Source of the DNA: an uncultured Methanomassiliicoccales archaeon
GTDB taxonomy: Archaea; Thermoplasmatota; Thermoplasmata; Methanomassiliicoccales; Methanomethylophilaceae
DNA length: 32,147 nt
Assembly (NCBI GenBank): GCA_949298875.1
Contig: CASFYI010000022.1
Coordinates: 1 to 32,147, forward strand
Reading direction: 5' to 3'
Shown here: positions 7,590 to 24,486 of the stretch, in pieces
Layout of the letters: each line of letters starts with the position of its first letter
How positions within the stretch are numbered: the stretch's first letter is position 1
Notes under the pieces: model-generated
What the model was told of the DNA's origin: nothing
What the model saw: the letters and a program-made list of their open reading frames with translations, nothing else
The model's database searches: none
Program-made: the position numbers and the translations under genes

Positions 7590-8138
7590 ATGGACGACAG
7601 GACGCTCGGATACATCCTGATCGCCGCGGTCTTCGCCGTGGCGCTGATCGCCTCGTTCCTCCTGGCCCGGCGGATCCCGCCAAAGGAGCGAGACGGATCG
7701 CAGGGACGCACGGCATCCGTCCACCACACGCATACGGGCGAACGACATGTTCGGATACACCACCCCAGCTTACGGAAGGCTCTCCCCGGCCGACAACCGC
7801 ACCTACCGCAGATACTACTGCGAGGGATGCCATCAGCTCAGGGACGGCTACGGCCTCACCGGGACCGGGACGGTGAACTACGACATGACGTTCAACACCA
7901 TCCTCCTCGAGGGGCTGGTCTGCGACTGCCCCGACTTCGGGCCCACGACCCGCAGGATCTGCGTGCTCGACTCCCCCAAGGCGGACTCCAGACTCATGCA
8001 CGAGATGGCCGCCTACACACTCATACTCACGAAATGGGAGCTTTACGACGACGAGACCGATATGCCGTCGATGAAGACGAAGCTCATCTCCCTGACGCTG
8101 AACCGCGCCATACAGAAGGCAGTCTCCGAGTTCCCTGA
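7590..8138 (+). CDS. Possible small membrane protein (uncertain frame end)
   Basis: ATG 7590 opens a frame starting MDDRTLGYILIAAVFAVALI, a convincing single membrane helix (about residues 8-27) followed by a basic stretch. A TATA-like CCCTTATCC sits about 25 nt before the ATG, in the leaderless spacing seen elsewhere here. After about 50 codons the frame runs into the DUF5685-type gene in another phase and stays open to 8138; that part is low-complexity and looks like an out-of-frame shadow. Either a short membrane protein overlaps its neighbour or the helix is fortuitous. The function is unknown. Confidence 0.3.
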   Translation: MDDRTLGYILIAAVFAVALIASFLLARRIPPKERDGSQGRTASVHHTHTGERHVRIHHPSLRKALPGRQPHLPQILLRGMPSAQGRLRPHRDRDGELRHDVQHHPPRGAGLRLPRLRAHDPQDLRARLPQGGLQTHARDGRLHTHTHEMGALRRRDRYAVDEDEAHLPDAEPRHTEGSLRVP

Positions 8139-9132
8139 GTACGACAGGATGGTCGGTGAGGGATTCATGCGCCTGCGCGACATGGAGCTGGCCGGATGCA
8201 GGGACGCAATCTCGATGGGCAGGGAGTTCGGCAGGGGCCTGACGGGACCGCTCGAGGGCATCGCCGGCGACTTCTACACGGAGGATCTGGGAGATGTGTT
8301 CACCCAGCTGACCGCAGCGGTGTACGTCATGGATGCGATCGACGACCTGGACGACGACTTCATGGACGGTACCTACAACCCTCTGCTCCCCGAGACCGGC
8401 TACGTCAACGCGCGCACCTTGGTCGACAGGGATGTCATGAGGTTCACATCCCTGGTGTCCGAAGCGGTCGGATCCCTCCAGTCCGCCTACTCCAGGGTGC
8501 GCCCGTCCATGCGCGGGAACGTCTCCCTCTGCGACAACATCGTCTACTTCGGGATACCGGAATCGGCCAAGCGCGTCATAATGGGCGATGCGAAGGCCAA
8601 GGCCAGCGTCAAGAACATCCTGTCGAACAGGAAGGACAGGCTGGCATCGGAACGATCCGGCGGGGTCGAAGTCCGAGCACACGTCCAGGGAGTCCCTGGG
8701 CTCCGAATGCCTGGAGCACACGCCTCCGCTCCACGACCTGCAACTGCCACAGCATCCCGGACGGTATCTCCCGCATCCGTCCTCCGGCCCCGTCGGCCTG
8801 GATTCCGGCATGCACACCCATATGTCATCCGAATGCGCGCAGAGGCGGCACGTGCGGCACTTCCCGTAGCTCTCGTCCATGGACGGACATATGCGGAAGG
8901 ACCTTATCGGTTTCCGTCGGCCGTGAGACGGTCCAGCATCCATGACATCCCGCGCGCCATCCTGCCGGCCGGATCGGTGAAGTGGTTGCCGGGATTCATC
9001 TCCAGCACCACATCGGACACGTTCGGATCGCCCCCATACGCCGTCCTGACGGATCTTATCGCATCGCCTACCGATGCCATCACAGGGTTCCTCGCCTTCT
9101 CCTCCTTGGTCCCGAGGCTCAGGTACACGTAG
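7747..9132 (+). CDS. DUF5685-type protein with read-through tail
   Basis: The first 300 or so residues look like a DUF5685-type protein: an N-terminal MFGYTTPAYGRLS, a Cys pair motif YYCEGCHQL (about 24-32), a further CDC near 59-61, then long helices with an acidic AIDDLDDDF segment near 197-205 and CDNIVYFG near 262-269. The family has no established function. The expected end is near codon 302 (about 8655), but no stop occurs there. The frame continues to a TAG at 9130-9132 through sequence that is exactly antisense to a Cys-rich ORF and to the alpha/beta hydrolase, so the last 150 or so residues are probably not a real domain. A CGA codon stands at 8653-8655, where a stop would be expected. 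Confidence 0.7.
   Translation: MFGYTTPAYGRLSPADNRTYRRYYCEGCHQLRDGYGLTGTGTVNYDMTFNTILLEGLVCDCPDFGPTTRRICVLDSPKADSRLMHEMAAYTLILTKWELYDDETDMPSMKTKLISLTLNRAIQKAVSEFPEYDRMVGEGFMRLRDMELAGCRDAISMGREFGRGLTGPLEGIAGDFYTEDLGDVFTQLTAAVYVMDAIDDLDDDFMDGTYNPLLPETGYVNARTLVDRDVMRFTSLVSEAVGSLQSAYSRVRPSMRGNVSLCDNIVYFGIPESAKRVIMGDAKAKASVKNILSNRKDRLASERSGGVEVRAHVQGVPGLRMPGAHASAPRPATATASRTVSPASVLRPRRPGFRHAHPYVIRMRAEAARAALPVALVHGRTYAEGPYRFPSAVRRSSIHDIPRAILPAGSVKWLPGFISSTTSDTFGSPPYAVLTDLIASPTDAITGFLAFSSLVPRLRYT
8647..8880 (-). CDS. Small cysteine-rich protein without a local stop codon
   Basis: From ATG 8880 the minus strand encodes about 77 residues with paired cysteines: CRTCRLC (8-14), C23, C36, CCGSC (43-47), C55 and C68 before SDFDPAG. 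The pattern resembles small metal-binding or cysteine-cluster proteins with a C-X2-C...C-X(n)-C-SDF ending. It starts 23 nt after the alpha/beta hydrolase stop on the same strand. The frame has no stop at the natural end; codon 78 is CGA (8647-8649) and the frame stays open far into the antisense of the DUF5685-type gene. The coordinates given here stop at the likely end of the real protein. No Shine-Dalgarno is visible. The function is unknown. Confidence 0.45.
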
Positions 9133-9632
9133 GAACCCTCGGGGGCACAGCGTCCGGCCGCGTACTCCACCCATCCGGGATACCAAACGGACGGCGAGCA
9201 TGCCACCGCCCCTCTGAACAGGCCGGTCTCATGGAACGCCCAGAGGGAGAACAGTCCAGCCAGCGAGTATCCGCATACGGCGAGCGGGACGTCGTCCCCC
9301 GCATCCAGAGCGTCCCTCGCCCGGGGGACCCATGCATCCCTCAGACGCGCGAGGGTCTCCCCTCCGCGTCCCGAGAACGCCCTCGCGCCCATGACCGGTT
9401 CGGAGGGCCAGGGGGTGAGCCCGGAATCCCAGTCCCCCACCCTGCATTCGACGATCGCGAAGCGCGGATCCGCCGCCGAGAGCCTCACCTTCCGGATAAC
9501 ATCGTCCGCGATGCCCGCCTCATGCTCCCCGGTTATCCAGAACAGCACCGCGTCAGGACCTGGGTCCCCCGTGATGCGGATGTCGTCCGCCCAGACTCCG
9601 TCCATTGAGATCGAGTGCGCACCGCGGTTCAT
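8904..9632 (-). CDS. Alpha/beta hydrolase (putative esterase)
   Basis: A 242-residue alpha/beta-hydrolase of the putative-esterase type. The nucleophile elbow is GYSLAG (about residues 120-125), preceded by the strand VPLAVC. A glycine/serine-rich ACSPSVWYPGW follows, as in enterochelin-esterase/esterase-D relatives, and a C-terminal NPGNHFTD supplies the likely catalytic His. No signal peptide is visible, so it is probably cytoplasmic. ATG 9632 is the longest start; an internal ATG at 9605 fits better with the TATA-like TATATTTAAT at about 9637-9645, which may serve both this gene and the divergent 9663 gene. The 3' part overlaps the doubtful tail of the DUF5685-type ORF. The substrate is not deducible. 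Confidence 0.85.
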   Translation of the reverse strand: MNRGAHSISMDGVWADDIRITGDPGPDAVLFWITGEHEAGIADDVIRKVRLSAADPRFAIVECRVGDWDSGLTPWPSEPVMGARAFSGRGGETLARLRDAWVPRARDALDAGDDVPLAVCGYSLAGLFSLWAFHETGLFRGAVACSPSVWYPGWVEYAAGRCAPEGSYVYLSLGTKEEKARNPVMASVGDAIRSVRTAYGGDPNVSDVVLEMNPGNHFTDPAGRMARGMSWMLDRLTADGNR

Positions 9633-9633
9633 C

Positions 9634-9646
9634 GATTAAATATAGA
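9634..9646. promoter_or_regulatory. Shared TATA element between divergent genes
   Basis: GATTAAATATAG lies in a 30-nt gap between the hydrolase (minus) and the prephenate-dehydratase-like gene (plus). It is 17-29 nt before the plus-strand ATG at 9663 and at leaderless distance from the minus-strand ATG at 9605, so it may work in both directions. Confidence 0.4.
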
Positions 9647-9662
9647 ATGGGAATGGGGGTGC

Positions 9663-10229
9663 ATGGTCGTCAGGGTAGCGTACATGGGAATCCCGGGCTC
9701 CAACTCCGAGCAGGCGGCGACTGAGCTCGCCGGCGCCATGGGCTGGGATGTCTTCGTACTCATTCCTAAGGAGGACTCCAGGAACACTGTGGCAGCCCTC
9801 GATTCCGGGGAGGCGGACTACGGCGTCGTCGCGTCCCGCAACGTCACCGCCGGACCCGTCGAGGAGACGGAGAGGTCCCTCGAGGGGAGGGATGACATCG
9901 AGATCCTCAGGGCCCTCTGGCTGCCCATCCACCACTGCGTCTTCGTGAAGCATCCCGGGGTGAGTGTCAGACACGTCGCCTCCCACATCCAGGCCCTCCT
10001 GCAGACGAGGGAGCACCTCGGCACCCTCTATCCGGACTCCGACAGGGTCGAGGTCTCCGACACGGCCGTCGCGGCCGAGATGCTCTCGGACGGAAGGCTC
10101 TCCGAGGATACCGCGGTCGTATGCCGCCGCAACGCCGGGGAGATGTTCAGGCTCCACCTCGTCCACGAGAACATCGAGGACATGGAGGGGAACATGACGG
10201 AGTTCGAACTCCTGAGGCTCAGACGATGA
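9663..10229 (+). CDS. Prephenate-dehydratase-like protein lacking the TRF motif
   Basis: A 188-residue protein with the periplasmic-binding-like fold of prephenate dehydratase (PDT). The N-terminus VAYMGIPGSNSEQAA matches the PDT start, and GEADYGVVASRNVTAGPVEET matches the usual GEADYGVVPIENS.AG..E. A second lobe (HIQAL...VSDTAVAAEML) and HLVHENIEDMEGN follow. The catalytic PDT motif N-x-T-R-F appears as N-M-T-E-F (about 178-182): the threonine is kept but the arginine is glutamate. There is no ACT regulatory domain and no chorismate mutase domain. It may therefore be an altered-specificity or non-catalytic PDT relative and should not be assumed to make phenylpyruvate. Its stop overlaps the start of the coiled-coil gene (ATGA), so the two are probably translated together. 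Confidence 0.75.
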   Translation: MVVRVAYMGIPGSNSEQAATELAGAMGWDVFVLIPKEDSRNTVAALDSGEADYGVVASRNVTAGPVEETERSLEGRDDIEILRALWLPIHHCVFVKHPGVSVRHVASHIQALLQTREHLGTLYPDSDRVEVSDTAVAAEMLSDGRLSEDTAVVCRRNAGEMFRLHLVHENIEDMEGNMTEFELLRLRR

Positions 10230-12003: not shown

Positions 12004-13104
12004 TTATTGGACTGACGACTTTAGTCGATTTAAAATGCGACATCGCCATCCAAGATTGAATGCAATGTAGACAGACATGTACACTTCTGCCCATCTGGGT
12101 CTGCGCATCATCGCGTAGGCTCCGCGGGCGAGCGAGTATCCCTTGCGGAAAGGCCCCATGGCGTCGGCGATCTCCTCCGGCCCCCAGGACGCGAACGTGT
12201 CATGTGCGCCCATGAAATGGGGACTGAACATGGGGTTACGGGACACCCAGCGCTGATACCGTTCGAGCCTGCCGTCGGCCATCGCCCTGGCGGCCTCCCT
12301 CCCGGATAGGAGCGCAGCGCCTATGCCTCCGAAGCACAGGGGGTTGGCGAGGCATGCGGCATCCCCCACGATTGCGCAGCGCCCGTCCACGACCCTCTCC
12401 TAGACGCCGAACGGCAGGTCCCTGGCGCCCCAGTCCAGGATCCCCTCCACCTCGGACGGGTCGGTGTGACCCCTGGGGAAGCCCACGGACACCCTTCCGG
12501 GGCCGGAGGGGAAGCGCCAGCCGTAGAACCCGTCCCCGTATCCTCCGACCGTGAACGAGAGCACATCCTCCTCGCCCTCGGCTATGCAGTTGAACACCTG
12601 CAGCCTCCTCGTCGGACCGGTGCCGAAGACGTCCCTCCGCACCGCCGAATGCGCACCGTCCGCACCGATCAGGCCGCGGCAGCGGATCCTGCGTCCGTCG
12701 GTGAGCTCCAGACTGTAGCCGGCATCGTCCTCCGAGACCGAACGGACGGACCCACGGATGAGATCGGCATCGCAGCCTTCCATGAGCTCCGACAGCATCG
12801 ACGGGCGGTCGACGACCATACCGCCGACCGGGATGTCGACGGAGATCTCGTCGGAGAACGCTATGCGGATCGTGTCCACCCTGCGGACACAGCCGCTGGG
12901 CCTCCAGCCCAGCTTCCTGAACGTCCTGTCGCTGACCGCCTCCCCGCAAATCCTGTGGTAGCGGCCGAAGCCCTCGTCGTGGAGACGCTCGATGCACGCG
13001 ACGGAGAGCCCCCTCCCGGACAGCTCCCTGACCGCGGACGCCCCGGCGGGACCGGACCCGACCACCGCGACGTCGTACGTCACGCCAGGAGCTTCATCTG
13101 CCAT
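12004..13104 (-). CDS. Geranylgeranyl reductase family flavoprotein with in-frame TAG
   Basis: Two open frames in the same phase make one protein of 366 codons if the TAG at 12400-12402 (codon 235) is read through. Before it: the FAD-binding VVGSGPAGASAVRE, RICGEAVSDRTF, LIGADGAHSAVR and FPRGHTDPSEVEG segments. After it: the second FAD motif CAIVGDAACLANPLCFGGIG and a helical C-terminus. Both halves are needed for the geranylgeranyl-reductase/halogenase fold, which in archaea saturates isoprenoid chains of membrane lipids. The stop could be a nonsense mutation (pseudogene) or an amber codon decoded as pyrrolysine. ATG 13104 overlaps the cardiolipin-synthase gene by 25 nt; an in-frame GTG at 13083 would give a tight GTGA overlap and the common (M)TYDVAVVG start. 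Confidence 0.75.
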
Positions 13105-14564
13105 GATACCGCCATCCTGATCCTCATCATGAGCGTGCTCCTGCCGTACTCCTCGCAGGAGTACTCCGTGCTCCTCTCCAGGTCCGCCAGGAACTGGTCG
13201 GCCGCCTGGGTGTTGAGCCTGCGGGAGTACATCATGACGTTGGTCTCGAAGTTCAGGGTCAGGGACCTGTGGTCCAGGTTGGCCGACCCCACGGACACGC
13301 ACATGTCGTCCATCAGGATCATCTTCTCGTGGACGAAGCCGTCGTTGTATCTGAAGACCCTCACGCCCGACTTCATCAGCTCGTTCGCGCAGGTCAGATT
13401 GTTCCAGAATAGGAAGATGTGGTCCTTCTTGTCGGGTATGAGTATCCTGACGTCCACCCCCGACCTGGCCGCGTTGGCCAGGGCGACCATCATAGAATCA
13501 TCCGGGGACAGGTACGGGGTGGTGATGTAGAGGCGCCTGCGGGCGTTGACGATCATTGAGAGGTACTGCATCTGGACCGGATTGTTCGGCATGGTGTCCG
13601 GACCGCCGGAGACGAGCTGCATCCTGTCCCTGCCCCCGGCTCCGGCGAAGTCGATGTCCATGTAGTGCTCAACCGGGCGGAGCGGATCCCTCTTGGCGCA
13701 GTACTGCCAGTCGGCGCAGAAGCGGATCATCATCGGCAGTATGCCCTCGCCGACCACCTTCACGGTGGCGTCCCTCCAATGGCCCAGCGGCCCCTCGCCG
13801 CGGTACTCGTCCCCGATGTTGAACCCTCCGCAGTATGCCATGGAGCCGTCGATGATGGCGATCTTCCTGTGGTTGCGGTTGTTCTTCTTCGGACTGAGGA
13901 GCAGGTTCAGGGAGGAATGGAAGGTTGCGTAGTGCCCCCCTGCGTTCCTGAACCTGAAGATGCCCTCCTTCGGACCCTTCCCGATGCCGAAGGCGTCCGT
14001 CAGCAGACGGACCTCGACTCCCTCGCGGACCTTGGATATCAGGAGATCCATGAGCGCGTTGCCGTCGTGGTCGTTGCGTATGATGTAGTACTCGATGAGG
14101 ATGGACTTCCTCGCGTTGGCGATGTCCCTCATCATGTCATCGAACAGCGGCTCGCCCTCGGTGTACAGGGTGATGTCGTTGTTCGCGGAGTACGGCCATG
14201 CACCGGCGTTCTCCAGGGACTTGGCCATGTGGAAGATGTCCTCCCTGTCCGGATGCGCCGCATAGTCCTCCTCGATGCGACCCCTCTGCCACTGGTACGC
14301 CCTCATCATCTGCGTGTCGGTGATGTTCTTAGGTGTGAACCTGTGGCGGTTGTAGAACGTCGCGCCCATGTAGAGGTACAGGATGAACCCCACCGGCGGA
14401 AGGAAGATCAGAAGGATCAGCCAGGTCACGAAAACGCGGGGGTCGTACTTCTCGAGGAAGAGCATGATGAAGATGGCCACTACGTCCAGTACGACGAAAA
14501 GCATGACGAGGTCCGAGAACACGTTGGTCACGGACAGTACATCATCGACGGTGACCTCTTCCAC
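13080..14564 (-). CDS. Cardiolipin synthase-like phospholipase D family protein
   Basis: A 494-residue PLD-superfamily enzyme with two N-terminal membrane helices (about residues 18-37 and 44-66) and two HKD motifs: H232-x-K234-x4-D239 (NHRKIAIIDG, followed by GGFNIG) and H412-x-K414-x4-D419 (VHEKMILMDD, followed by GSANLDHRS). This is the layout of cardiolipin synthase ClsA, which joins phospholipid head groups at the membrane. In archaea such enzymes can make glycerol-bridged dimeric phospholipids. It overlaps the start of the geranylgeranyl-reductase-type gene, so the two form a lipid-related operon. The promoter region upstream is shared with the divergent transglutaminase-like gene and holds TCCAAT/ATTGGA repeats. 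Confidence 0.9.
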   Translation of the reverse strand: MEEVTVDDVLSVTNVFSDLVMLFVVLDVVAIFIMLFLEKYDPRVFVTWLILLIFLPPVGFILYLYMGATFYNRHRFTPKNITDTQMMRAYQWQRGRIEEDYAAHPDREDIFHMAKSLENAGAWPYSANNDITLYTEGEPLFDDMMRDIANARKSILIEYYIIRNDHDGNALMDLLISKVREGVEVRLLTDAFGIGKGPKEGIFRFRNAGGHYATFHSSLNLLLSPKKNNRNHRKIAIIDGSMAYCGGFNIGDEYRGEGPLGHWRDATVKVVGEGILPMMIRFCADWQYCAKRDPLRPVEHYMDIDFAGAGGRDRMQLVSGGPDTMPNNPVQMQYLSMIVNARRRLYITTPYLSPDDSMMVALANAARSGVDVRILIPDKKDHIFLFWNNLTCANELMKSGVRVFRYNDGFVHEKMILMDDMCVSVGSANLDHRSLTLNFETNVMMYSRRLNTQAADQFLADLERSTEYSCEEYGRSTLMMRIRMAVSWQMKLLA

Positions 14565-22856: not shown

Positions 22857-24434
22857 TCAGCGCACGTCAAAGAGCGAATGGTCGAACCTGTGCTCCGGGC
22901 AGTTCTCCGAGCACCTCTCGCACGCGGTGCCGAGGCATCTGCTGGCGTCTATCGAGAAGGTCCCTCCCTCGAAGGCCAGCGCCCTCTCCGGGCATCCCCT
23001 CACGCACGTCATGCATCCCGAACACTCCCACGAGGCGGTCATCCTGACCCCGGGATCTATGATCTCAACCCCGGAGCCGGCGTCGCGGATGTCCCTCTCG
23101 CAAACGCGATCCACGGAGGCATCCGCGCGGTCGTCGAGATAGCCGTCCAGCCCGTGCTCCGACAGCACGCGCCTGTAGCGCTCCACGGGCATCCCGCCCG
23201 TCCAGAGCCCGATCTCGTAGACGTAGAGGTCCCTGAACGTCTCGGAGGATGCGAACATGGTGTGCCTGGTGACCAGCCTCTCCCTGAGCTCGTTCAGCGG
23301 CCCCACGGCGTCCGGGTCCCGGGCCAGGTCCTTGGCCAGCTCGAGGGAGGTGTTCCCGACCTGTACCATCCTGGTGCACATCGGCACCACCATGCCCAGA
23401 TCCCTCGCCTTGAAGGGGTCCACGTAGGTGCCGCTCGCCCCGGCCATGTACATCGTCCGCACATCGCCCGGCGATATGCCCGCCTCCTCGATGAGCGTCA
23501 TGTGCCCGGCGCGGATCGCCCCGATGGCCTTGCCCGCCTCCTCGAGATCAGCATCGGTGAACGAGACCCTCCTGGATATGCGGATGGAGCCCCCGTCGAT
23601 CCTGCAACCCCTGATGCGCTCGTCGCGCATCGCCGCGTACACGAGGGCGATCACGCCGGTCCCGGTTATCCCGTCCGGCATCCTCCCCTCGGCGCGGGAG
23701 AACCCGCTGCGGAGGTTCACCAAGGGGCCGTCCACGGCGTCCAGACCCTCATCGAGCACCTTGGACCTCCATCCCTGCGGAGTGCGGACCAGGTCGCTCA
23801 TGGCGCCCGGGGCGGCGAGCATCCCGCACGATATCTCCTGCCCCTCGAGCGCCGGACCGGCGGCCGCTGATCCCGTGAAGATGTCGTCCCCGACCTTCAG
23901 GGCCATCTCCGCGTTGGTCCCGTAGTCCGTGACCATGCACATGTCGTCGTCGAGGAACCCGGACTTCAGCATCATGGCGAGGGCATCCGCCCCTATCTCG
24001 TGCCTCACCGCCGGCGGTACGACGAGGTCCACATGCTCCGGGAGGCCTATGGCGCCGGCGGAGGTCACATGGCCCCTGCGGTCGACGTTCCCGACGTGCT
24101 CGCTCTCCAGCTTGTTCTTGCCCGCGTACGCCAGGTCCCTGATCTCCACGCCCTCGAGGATGGACAGCTGTATGGGATTGCCGCAGACCGCCACCCTCAC
24201 CAGGGACTCCGGCGCGAGCATCCCTATCAGCTCCTGGACCGATCTTGTCAGGATCCTGTGCGCCAGGCCGGGGCCGCGCTCTATGGCGAATGACAGATGG
24301 TCCATCACGTTCGCCCCCGGGATCGGGTTCCTGGCCGTGATGCACGTGCGGAGCACCCTGCCCGTGCCGAGATCGATCAGCTGCCCCCTGATCCCGCTGG
24401 TGCCTATGTCCAATGCGATGGCCTGTCCGCCCAT
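22857..24434 (-). CDS. ramA: Corrinoid activation protein RamA-like (ATP-dependent reductase)
   Basis: A 525-residue RamA-type protein, which reductively activates the Co(II) form of methyltransferase corrinoid proteins using ATP. The N-terminus has an ASKHA-like ALDIGTSGIRG, followed by TDYGTNAEMAL and GITGTGVIALVYA. The C-terminus carries two [4Fe-4S] motifs: C471-X2-C474-X2-C477-X3-C481 and C500-X4-C505-X2-C508-X3-C512. The second has four residues rather than two between its first cysteines. ATG 24434 is chosen because GGAGGGATT lies just upstream; an earlier in-frame ATG adds ten residues without such a site. It is the third gene of the methyltransferase operon, behind a strong intergenic hairpin. 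Confidence 0.92.
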   Translation of the reverse strand: MGGQAIALDIGTSGIRGQLIDLGTGRVLRTCITARNPIPGANVMDHLSFAIERGPGLAHRILTRSVQELIGMLAPESLVRVAVCGNPIQLSILEGVEIRDLAYAGKNKLESEHVGNVDRRGHVTSAGAIGLPEHVDLVVPPAVRHEIGADALAMMLKSGFLDDDMCMVTDYGTNAEMALKVGDDIFTGSAAAGPALEGQEISCGMLAAPGAMSDLVRTPQGWRSKVLDEGLDAVDGPLVNLRSGFSRAEGRMPDGITGTGVIALVYAAMRDERIRGCRIDGGSIRISRRVSFTDADLEEAGKAIGAIRAGHMTLIEEAGISPGDVRTMYMAGASGTYVDPFKARDLGMVVPMCTRMVQVGNTSLELAKDLARDPDAVGPLNELRERLVTRHTMFASSETFRDLYVYEIGLWTGGMPVERYRRVLSEHGLDGYLDDRADASVDRVCERDIRDAGSGVEIIDPGVRMTASWECSGCMTCVRGCPERALAFEGGTFSIDASRCLGTACERCSENCPEHRFDHSLFDVR

Positions 24435-24486
24435 AATGAGAATCCCTCCGAACCTGTTTCCCAAGGGGTTTCCTAAGGTGTTTCTT

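Follow-up and report, generated by a model that had tools for sequence, protein, structure and literature searches.

Does an amber codon within a reductase-like gene of a gut-type methanogen end translation, or is it read as pyrrolysine (Pyl)? The gene is part of the window, i.e. the whole stretch of DNA that was analysed (32,147 nt), which belongs to a genome of 1.34 Mb in 93 contigs that is about 80% complete (G000). The closest relative (G076; E16__bin99, Ca. Methanomethylophilaceae) is referred to as the sister. The relevant features of the window are:

12004..13083, minus strand: reductase-like gene, GTG start at 13083 (alternative ATG at 13104), TAA stop at 12006-12004
12400..12402, minus strand: in-frame TAG, codon 228 from the GTG at 13083; CAG (Gln) in the sister
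12043..12045, minus strand: CGA at codon 347; most orthologs and the sister terminate at this position (...GW-stop), the sister with TGA
13080..14564, minus strand: PLD-family cardiolipin-synthase-like gene, 494 aa, upstream of the reductase-like gene

The plus strand reads CTA at 12400-12402, i.e. TAG on the minus strand. When this TAG is translated as a sense codon, the frame is open from the GTG at 13083 to the TAA at 12004-12006, and the resulting 359 codons contain zero other stops. This confirms the TAG inside an otherwise intact frame, described in a first-pass annotation as the sole break in one flavoprotein. The second FAD motif (IVGDAA; IVGDAACLANPLCFGGIG) is indeed located after the TAG. 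The codon number given earlier was 235 instead of 228, because it was counted from the in-frame ATG at 13104. The stop of the PLD-family gene overlaps the GTG start of the reductase-like gene, and the two genes are adjacent in 11 members of the genus, G000 included. At the distal end the terminal TGA is lost (CGA), which adds 13 codons up to a TAA that is also present in the sister. The window also contains a gene for a RamA-type methylamine corrinoid activase (22857-24464).

The earlier claim that no other called gene ends in TAG is nearly right: apart from the reductase-like gene, 1 of the 28 gene calls in the window does so, i.e. a DUF5685 gene (7747-9132, plus strand). It ends in TAG only because its TGA was lost (CGA here; the sister keeps TGA at codon 303). 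About 159 codons lie between the lost TGA and this TAG, and reading the TAG as sense would add another 168 codons.

To which family does the protein belong? The match to TIGR02032 has a score of 111.7 bits (E 5e-32), below the curated cut-off of 158.8, and the protein is therefore filed only as a relative and not as a member. The two models for digeranylgeranylglycerophospholipid reductase, NF041080 and NF041160, yielded 55.7 and 38.2 bits, and their cut-offs of 580 and 780, respectively, were not reached. An AlphaFold2 model was built from 26 orthologs (mean pLDDT 87), and the top-ranked Foldseek matches are geranylgeranyl reductases (GGRs; 4opu, 4opt, 4opg, 3oz2, and 3atq), with TM values of about 0.72-0.76 by query. 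By sequence, the protein is closest to the geranylgeranyl-reductase superfamily, whose fold and motifs it shares, below membership scores, and it is a predicted FAD oxidoreductase. Designation as a lipid enzyme is not supported, as the protein is below the curated cut-offs of the models for both types of reductase.

Clear orthologs are missing in several PylS-containing relatives (G052, G066, and G067), so that the gene is either dispensable or was missed in those assemblies; probably, it is not essential across the genus. No second copy was found on the viral contigs searched.

Protein conservation extends past the TAG, the sister being 94% identical over the whole length, so that a chance open frame can be discarded. 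Between the two genes, synonymous divergence amounts to about 0.21, with a dN/dS of 0.144 for the part before the TAG and of 0.065 for the part after it. This comparison, which had been proposed as a check, indicates that the downstream half is not decayed. Both halves appear to be under purifying selection in the sister pair, not necessarily since the TAG arose: because the sister has CAG, the TAG could be younger than most of the divergence, and dN/dS says little about selection since then. The second proposed check, an alignment of orthologs, revealed that the TAG is not conserved and that its column is variable in the 26 orthologs (V, I, D, L, P, Q, E, S, N, and M). Given this variability, nothing suggests a selected role for Pyl. 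In the AlphaFold2 model, residue 228 belongs to a predicted loop that lies apart from the invariant motifs.

Stop codons were surveyed in an ortholog group of 48 family members, the G000 gene included. Internal TAGs are present in 2 of the 48, in G000 and in G056 of the same genus, at different places, and both genomes encode PylS; an internal TAA or TGA was found in none of the 48. The TAG of G056 stands in a mostly Lys/Arg column. The orthologs examined from PylS-containing genomes all have TGA or TAA as their stop, and the sole TAG-ended ortholog belongs to G093, a genome without a PylS match over the cut-off. Further instances of “one stop inside” were discounted, as nearly all of them were ordinary terminal stops. 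In-frame TAGs also occur in two GGR paralogs, i.e. L079 (G014, a single-contig genome) and L080 (G009), at different positions, with Gln in the other species at each; relative to the window gene, the TAG-bearing gene of G014 is paralogous and not orthologous. The TAGs in G000, G056, G014, and G009 are as would be expected from single-base changes of CAG and AAG codons. A PYLIS-like downstream mRNA element was not detected, as the folding of the 101 bases from the TAG onwards is no stronger than that of shuffled sequences (z 0.14).

Does TAG behave as a sense codon genome-wide? A six-frame dicodon model was used to call genes in 355 kb of G000 and 726 kb of the sister (~1.1 Mb). The stops called were 290 TGA, 25 TAA, and 6 TAG in G000, and 553 TGA, 48 TAA, and 13 TAG in the sister, with several of the TAG cases being antisense artefacts. 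Continuation of coding past the stop was assessed for both samples, with inclusion only of genes whose last 40 codons look coding. Coding continues past TAG in 8 of 10 cases, compared with 38 of 790 (about 5%) for TGA (Fisher p = 2.7e-9 for TAG versus TGA) and 4 of 53 for TAA; among the 8 TAG cases are the reductase-like gene, two methylamine-methyltransferase-like genes of the sister, and one gene pair that was counted for each species. On visual inspection, many of the TGA and TAA cases resemble a following gene that shares the frame. One of the two methyltransferase-like genes is MtmB by Pfam.

Alignment of about 199 gene pairs of G000 and the sister yielded 53,418 codons, among which the TAG of the reductase-like gene is the only internal TAG; the number of internal TAA codons is zero, and three CGA-to-TGA changes were found (codons 281/292, 168/205, and 286/414). 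A TAG end is shared by only two of about 190 pairs, one read-through gene conserved in both species and one NAD synthase gene. At gene ends, TGA and CGA differ in about 3% of the sampled pairs in each direction, so that C-terminal extensions turn over quickly. For this reason, and because the orthologs of G056 and G061 also extend past the usual end, the loss of the terminal TGA is not read as decay. Decay was considered, because the gene both gained a TAG and lost its TGA, and is not favoured, such stop changes being common between the two species. The lost TGA and its 13 extra codons are nevertheless a possible sign of relaxed constraint and a weak point of the intact-gene reading.

Several other genes with TAG were observed. 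The NAD synthase gene has its TAG end followed by TGA five codons later in both species (L051, 8647-9495, plus strand; L074, near 8900-9736, minus strand), a tandem arrangement that would limit the effect of read-through. A gene of 285 codons has an in-frame TAG that is conserved in both species (L051, 188-1044, minus strand; L074, 17338-18192, plus strand). It has weak similarity to the DprA winged-helix and RecG C-terminal domains and, as a candidate for a retained Pyl, is preferable to the reductase-like gene. In the sister, two very large genes of about 2,300 and 3,470 codons (L060 from 2673 and L108 from 4771, respectively, both plus strand) have one in-frame TAG each, with a strong coding signal on both sides.

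Is the machinery for Pyl present? The first-pass annotation had called for a search for pyl genes, and tRNA-Pyl(CUA), PylS, PylC, and PylD are present in G000. PylS has 263 bits (cut-off 178), and PylC and PylD are both above their curated cut-offs. The pylT gene encodes a 71-base tRNA with a CUA anticodon and a cloverleaf fold (L006, 18022-18092, minus strand) and is located directly upstream of pylS. ARAGORN did not detect a tRNA-Pyl; the gene was spotted on inspection of the sequence, and its fold and its copies in relatives confirm it, with 100% identity over 69-71 of the 71 bases in eleven further species of the genus. The PylS N-terminal domain had no match in G000. This is not evidence against Pyl, because the catalytic domain is present and a shortened PylS has been described for the order Methanomassiliicoccales (PMC3941956). 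The mtmB gene (G000:C9:22231-23583, 766 bits) contains one in-frame TAG, which is canonical.

The set pylTSBCD is thus represented by pylT, pylS, pylC, and pylD, and pylB was found neither in the ~80%-complete G000 assembly nor in that of the sister. The cluster order is pylT-S-C-D without pylB in both (L006, 15187-18092, on contig C92 of G000; about 65-69 kb of G076:C9). Across the genus, 27 of 31 genomes have a pylB above the cut-off, and in G073, G074, G077, and G052 it is on a contig other than that of pylS. G073 and G074 share the order pylT-S-C-D and have pylB beside or near a glutamyl-tRNA synthetase gene (identified by eye). The latter was not found in G000; in the sister it is at a contig end, preceded by what appears to be the end of a corrinoid protein gene and not by pylB. 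As the arrangement pylTSCD with a distant pylB, 0.7 Mb away, is also known from ‘Ca. M. alvus’ (PMC3941956), an incomplete assembly is the likely cause of the missing pylB. It is highly improbable that G000 and the sister truly lost pylB and kept pylT, pylS, pylC, and pylD. In that case, the amino acid inserted at UAG in methyltransferases and drifted proteins would be either Pyl synthesised from imported 3-methylornithine or a desmethyl form produced by PylC and PylD.

The sequences very probably reflect a near-neutral CAG-to-TAG change in a lineage that decodes UAG as pyrrolysine, so that the protein is full-length and carries a single Pyl in a loop. A recent C-to-T transition would have converted a non-conserved CAG (Gln) to TAG. 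As UAG rarely serves as a terminator in this lineage, the change would be near-neutral, and it would be tolerated because of the reading of UAG as pyrrolysine. The tRNA-Pyl(CUA), charged by the short PylS, would insert Pyl at UAG, so that the full reductase-like flavoprotein is very probably still made, perhaps together with some truncated product. The Pyl would be placed in the loop between the substrate domain and the second FAD motif, as a residue without a special role, and the gene would be an intact single cistron. Reading of the TAG as pyrrolysine, as proposed earlier, is supported by pylT, pylS, pylC, and pylD, the genome-wide sense behaviour of TAG, the undecayed downstream half, and the in-frame TAG elsewhere in the G056 ortholog. 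From these data we infer the actual decoding, the inserted amino acid, the enzyme activity, and the neutrality.

A recent nonsense mutation, by which translation would end at the TAG and leave an early pseudogene or an inactive 227-residue fragment, is unlikely. The change is recent, as the sister has a sense codon, and a loss could be tolerated, as the normal stop is also lost (TGA to CGA) and the gene is absent from some relatives. However, G000 has the UAG-reading machinery and an mtmB that needs it. In addition, the gene is free of frameshifts and of further nonsense codons, dN/dS is no higher behind the TAG than in front of it, the G056 ortholog is intact apart from its TAG, and internal TAA or TGA is present in no ortholog examined.

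A base error in the metagenome assembly, with CAG as the true codon, is very unlikely. It would require a single transition relative to the sister in a fragmentary assembly, and a second assembly of the same species was not found. Yet the surrounding 6.6 kb are 94% identical to the sister with few gaps and no sign of a poor stretch, and in-frame TAGs also occur in G056 and in the paralogs of G014 and G009.

We regard a selected, functional Pyl at codon 228 of the enzyme as most improbable: the presence of the codon is all that points to it, whereas the column is among the variable ones with Gln in the sister, the predicted loop is away from the invariant motifs, and the TAGs of other family members are at unrelated positions. 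Two proteins, i.e. a split flavoprotein with a stop at the TAG and re-initiation at a GTG four codons later, can practically be dismissed, as the GGAGAGG and GTG right after the TAG are ordinary coding sequence with the same residues (ERVVDG) in the sister, the tail alone is without the N-terminal FAD-binding motif, and no ortholog examined is split.

How does the proposed Pyl decoding in the reductase-like gene compare with known systems? The methylamine methyltransferases MtmB, MtbB, and MttB share the codon, the tRNA, and the synthetase with it, but their TAG is a conserved canonical Pyl site, whereas the position of the reductase TAG is not conserved. Pyrrolysine in a tRNA-His guanylyltransferase has reportedly arisen by neutral evolution, according to the title of a study by Heinemann et al. 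from 2009; this would be another protein, again a housekeeping-type enzyme with a neutral Pyl, as proposed here. A more recent report is said to describe archaea that read all TAG codons as Pyl. With Gln in the sister and TAG in G000, the reductase-like gene is a further well-polarised example of a Pyl codon gained by drift outside methylamine metabolism. It supports TAG as effectively a sense codon in Methanomethylophilaceae, and it is a warning that standard annotation will split genes with an in-frame TAG.

The same kind of case is already published in relatives (PMC4153887, PMC5011839). Of the earlier reading, Pyl decoding is supported, whereas “unusual” and “lipid enzyme” are not. In ‘Ca. 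Methanomethylophilus alvus’, 16 proteins other than the methyltransferases are predicted to contain Pyl, including digeranylgeranylglyceryl phosphate synthase; TAG represents 1.6% of its stops, and the authors regarded amber codons as stable under constant Pyl decoding (PMC4153887). It resembles G000 in the low usage of TAG as a stop and in the scattered in-frame TAGs in unrelated genes, and differs in the genes affected, its lipid gene being a synthase and not a reductase-like protein. The Methanomassiliicoccales strain ISO4-H5 has 46 genes with in-frame amber codons, two of which encode geranylgeranyl reductases (AR505_1433 and AR505_1618; PMC5011839, 2016). ISO4-H5 and G000 are different species, but these genes match the window gene in taxonomic order, gene superfamily, Pyl machinery, and a TAG outside methylamine metabolism.
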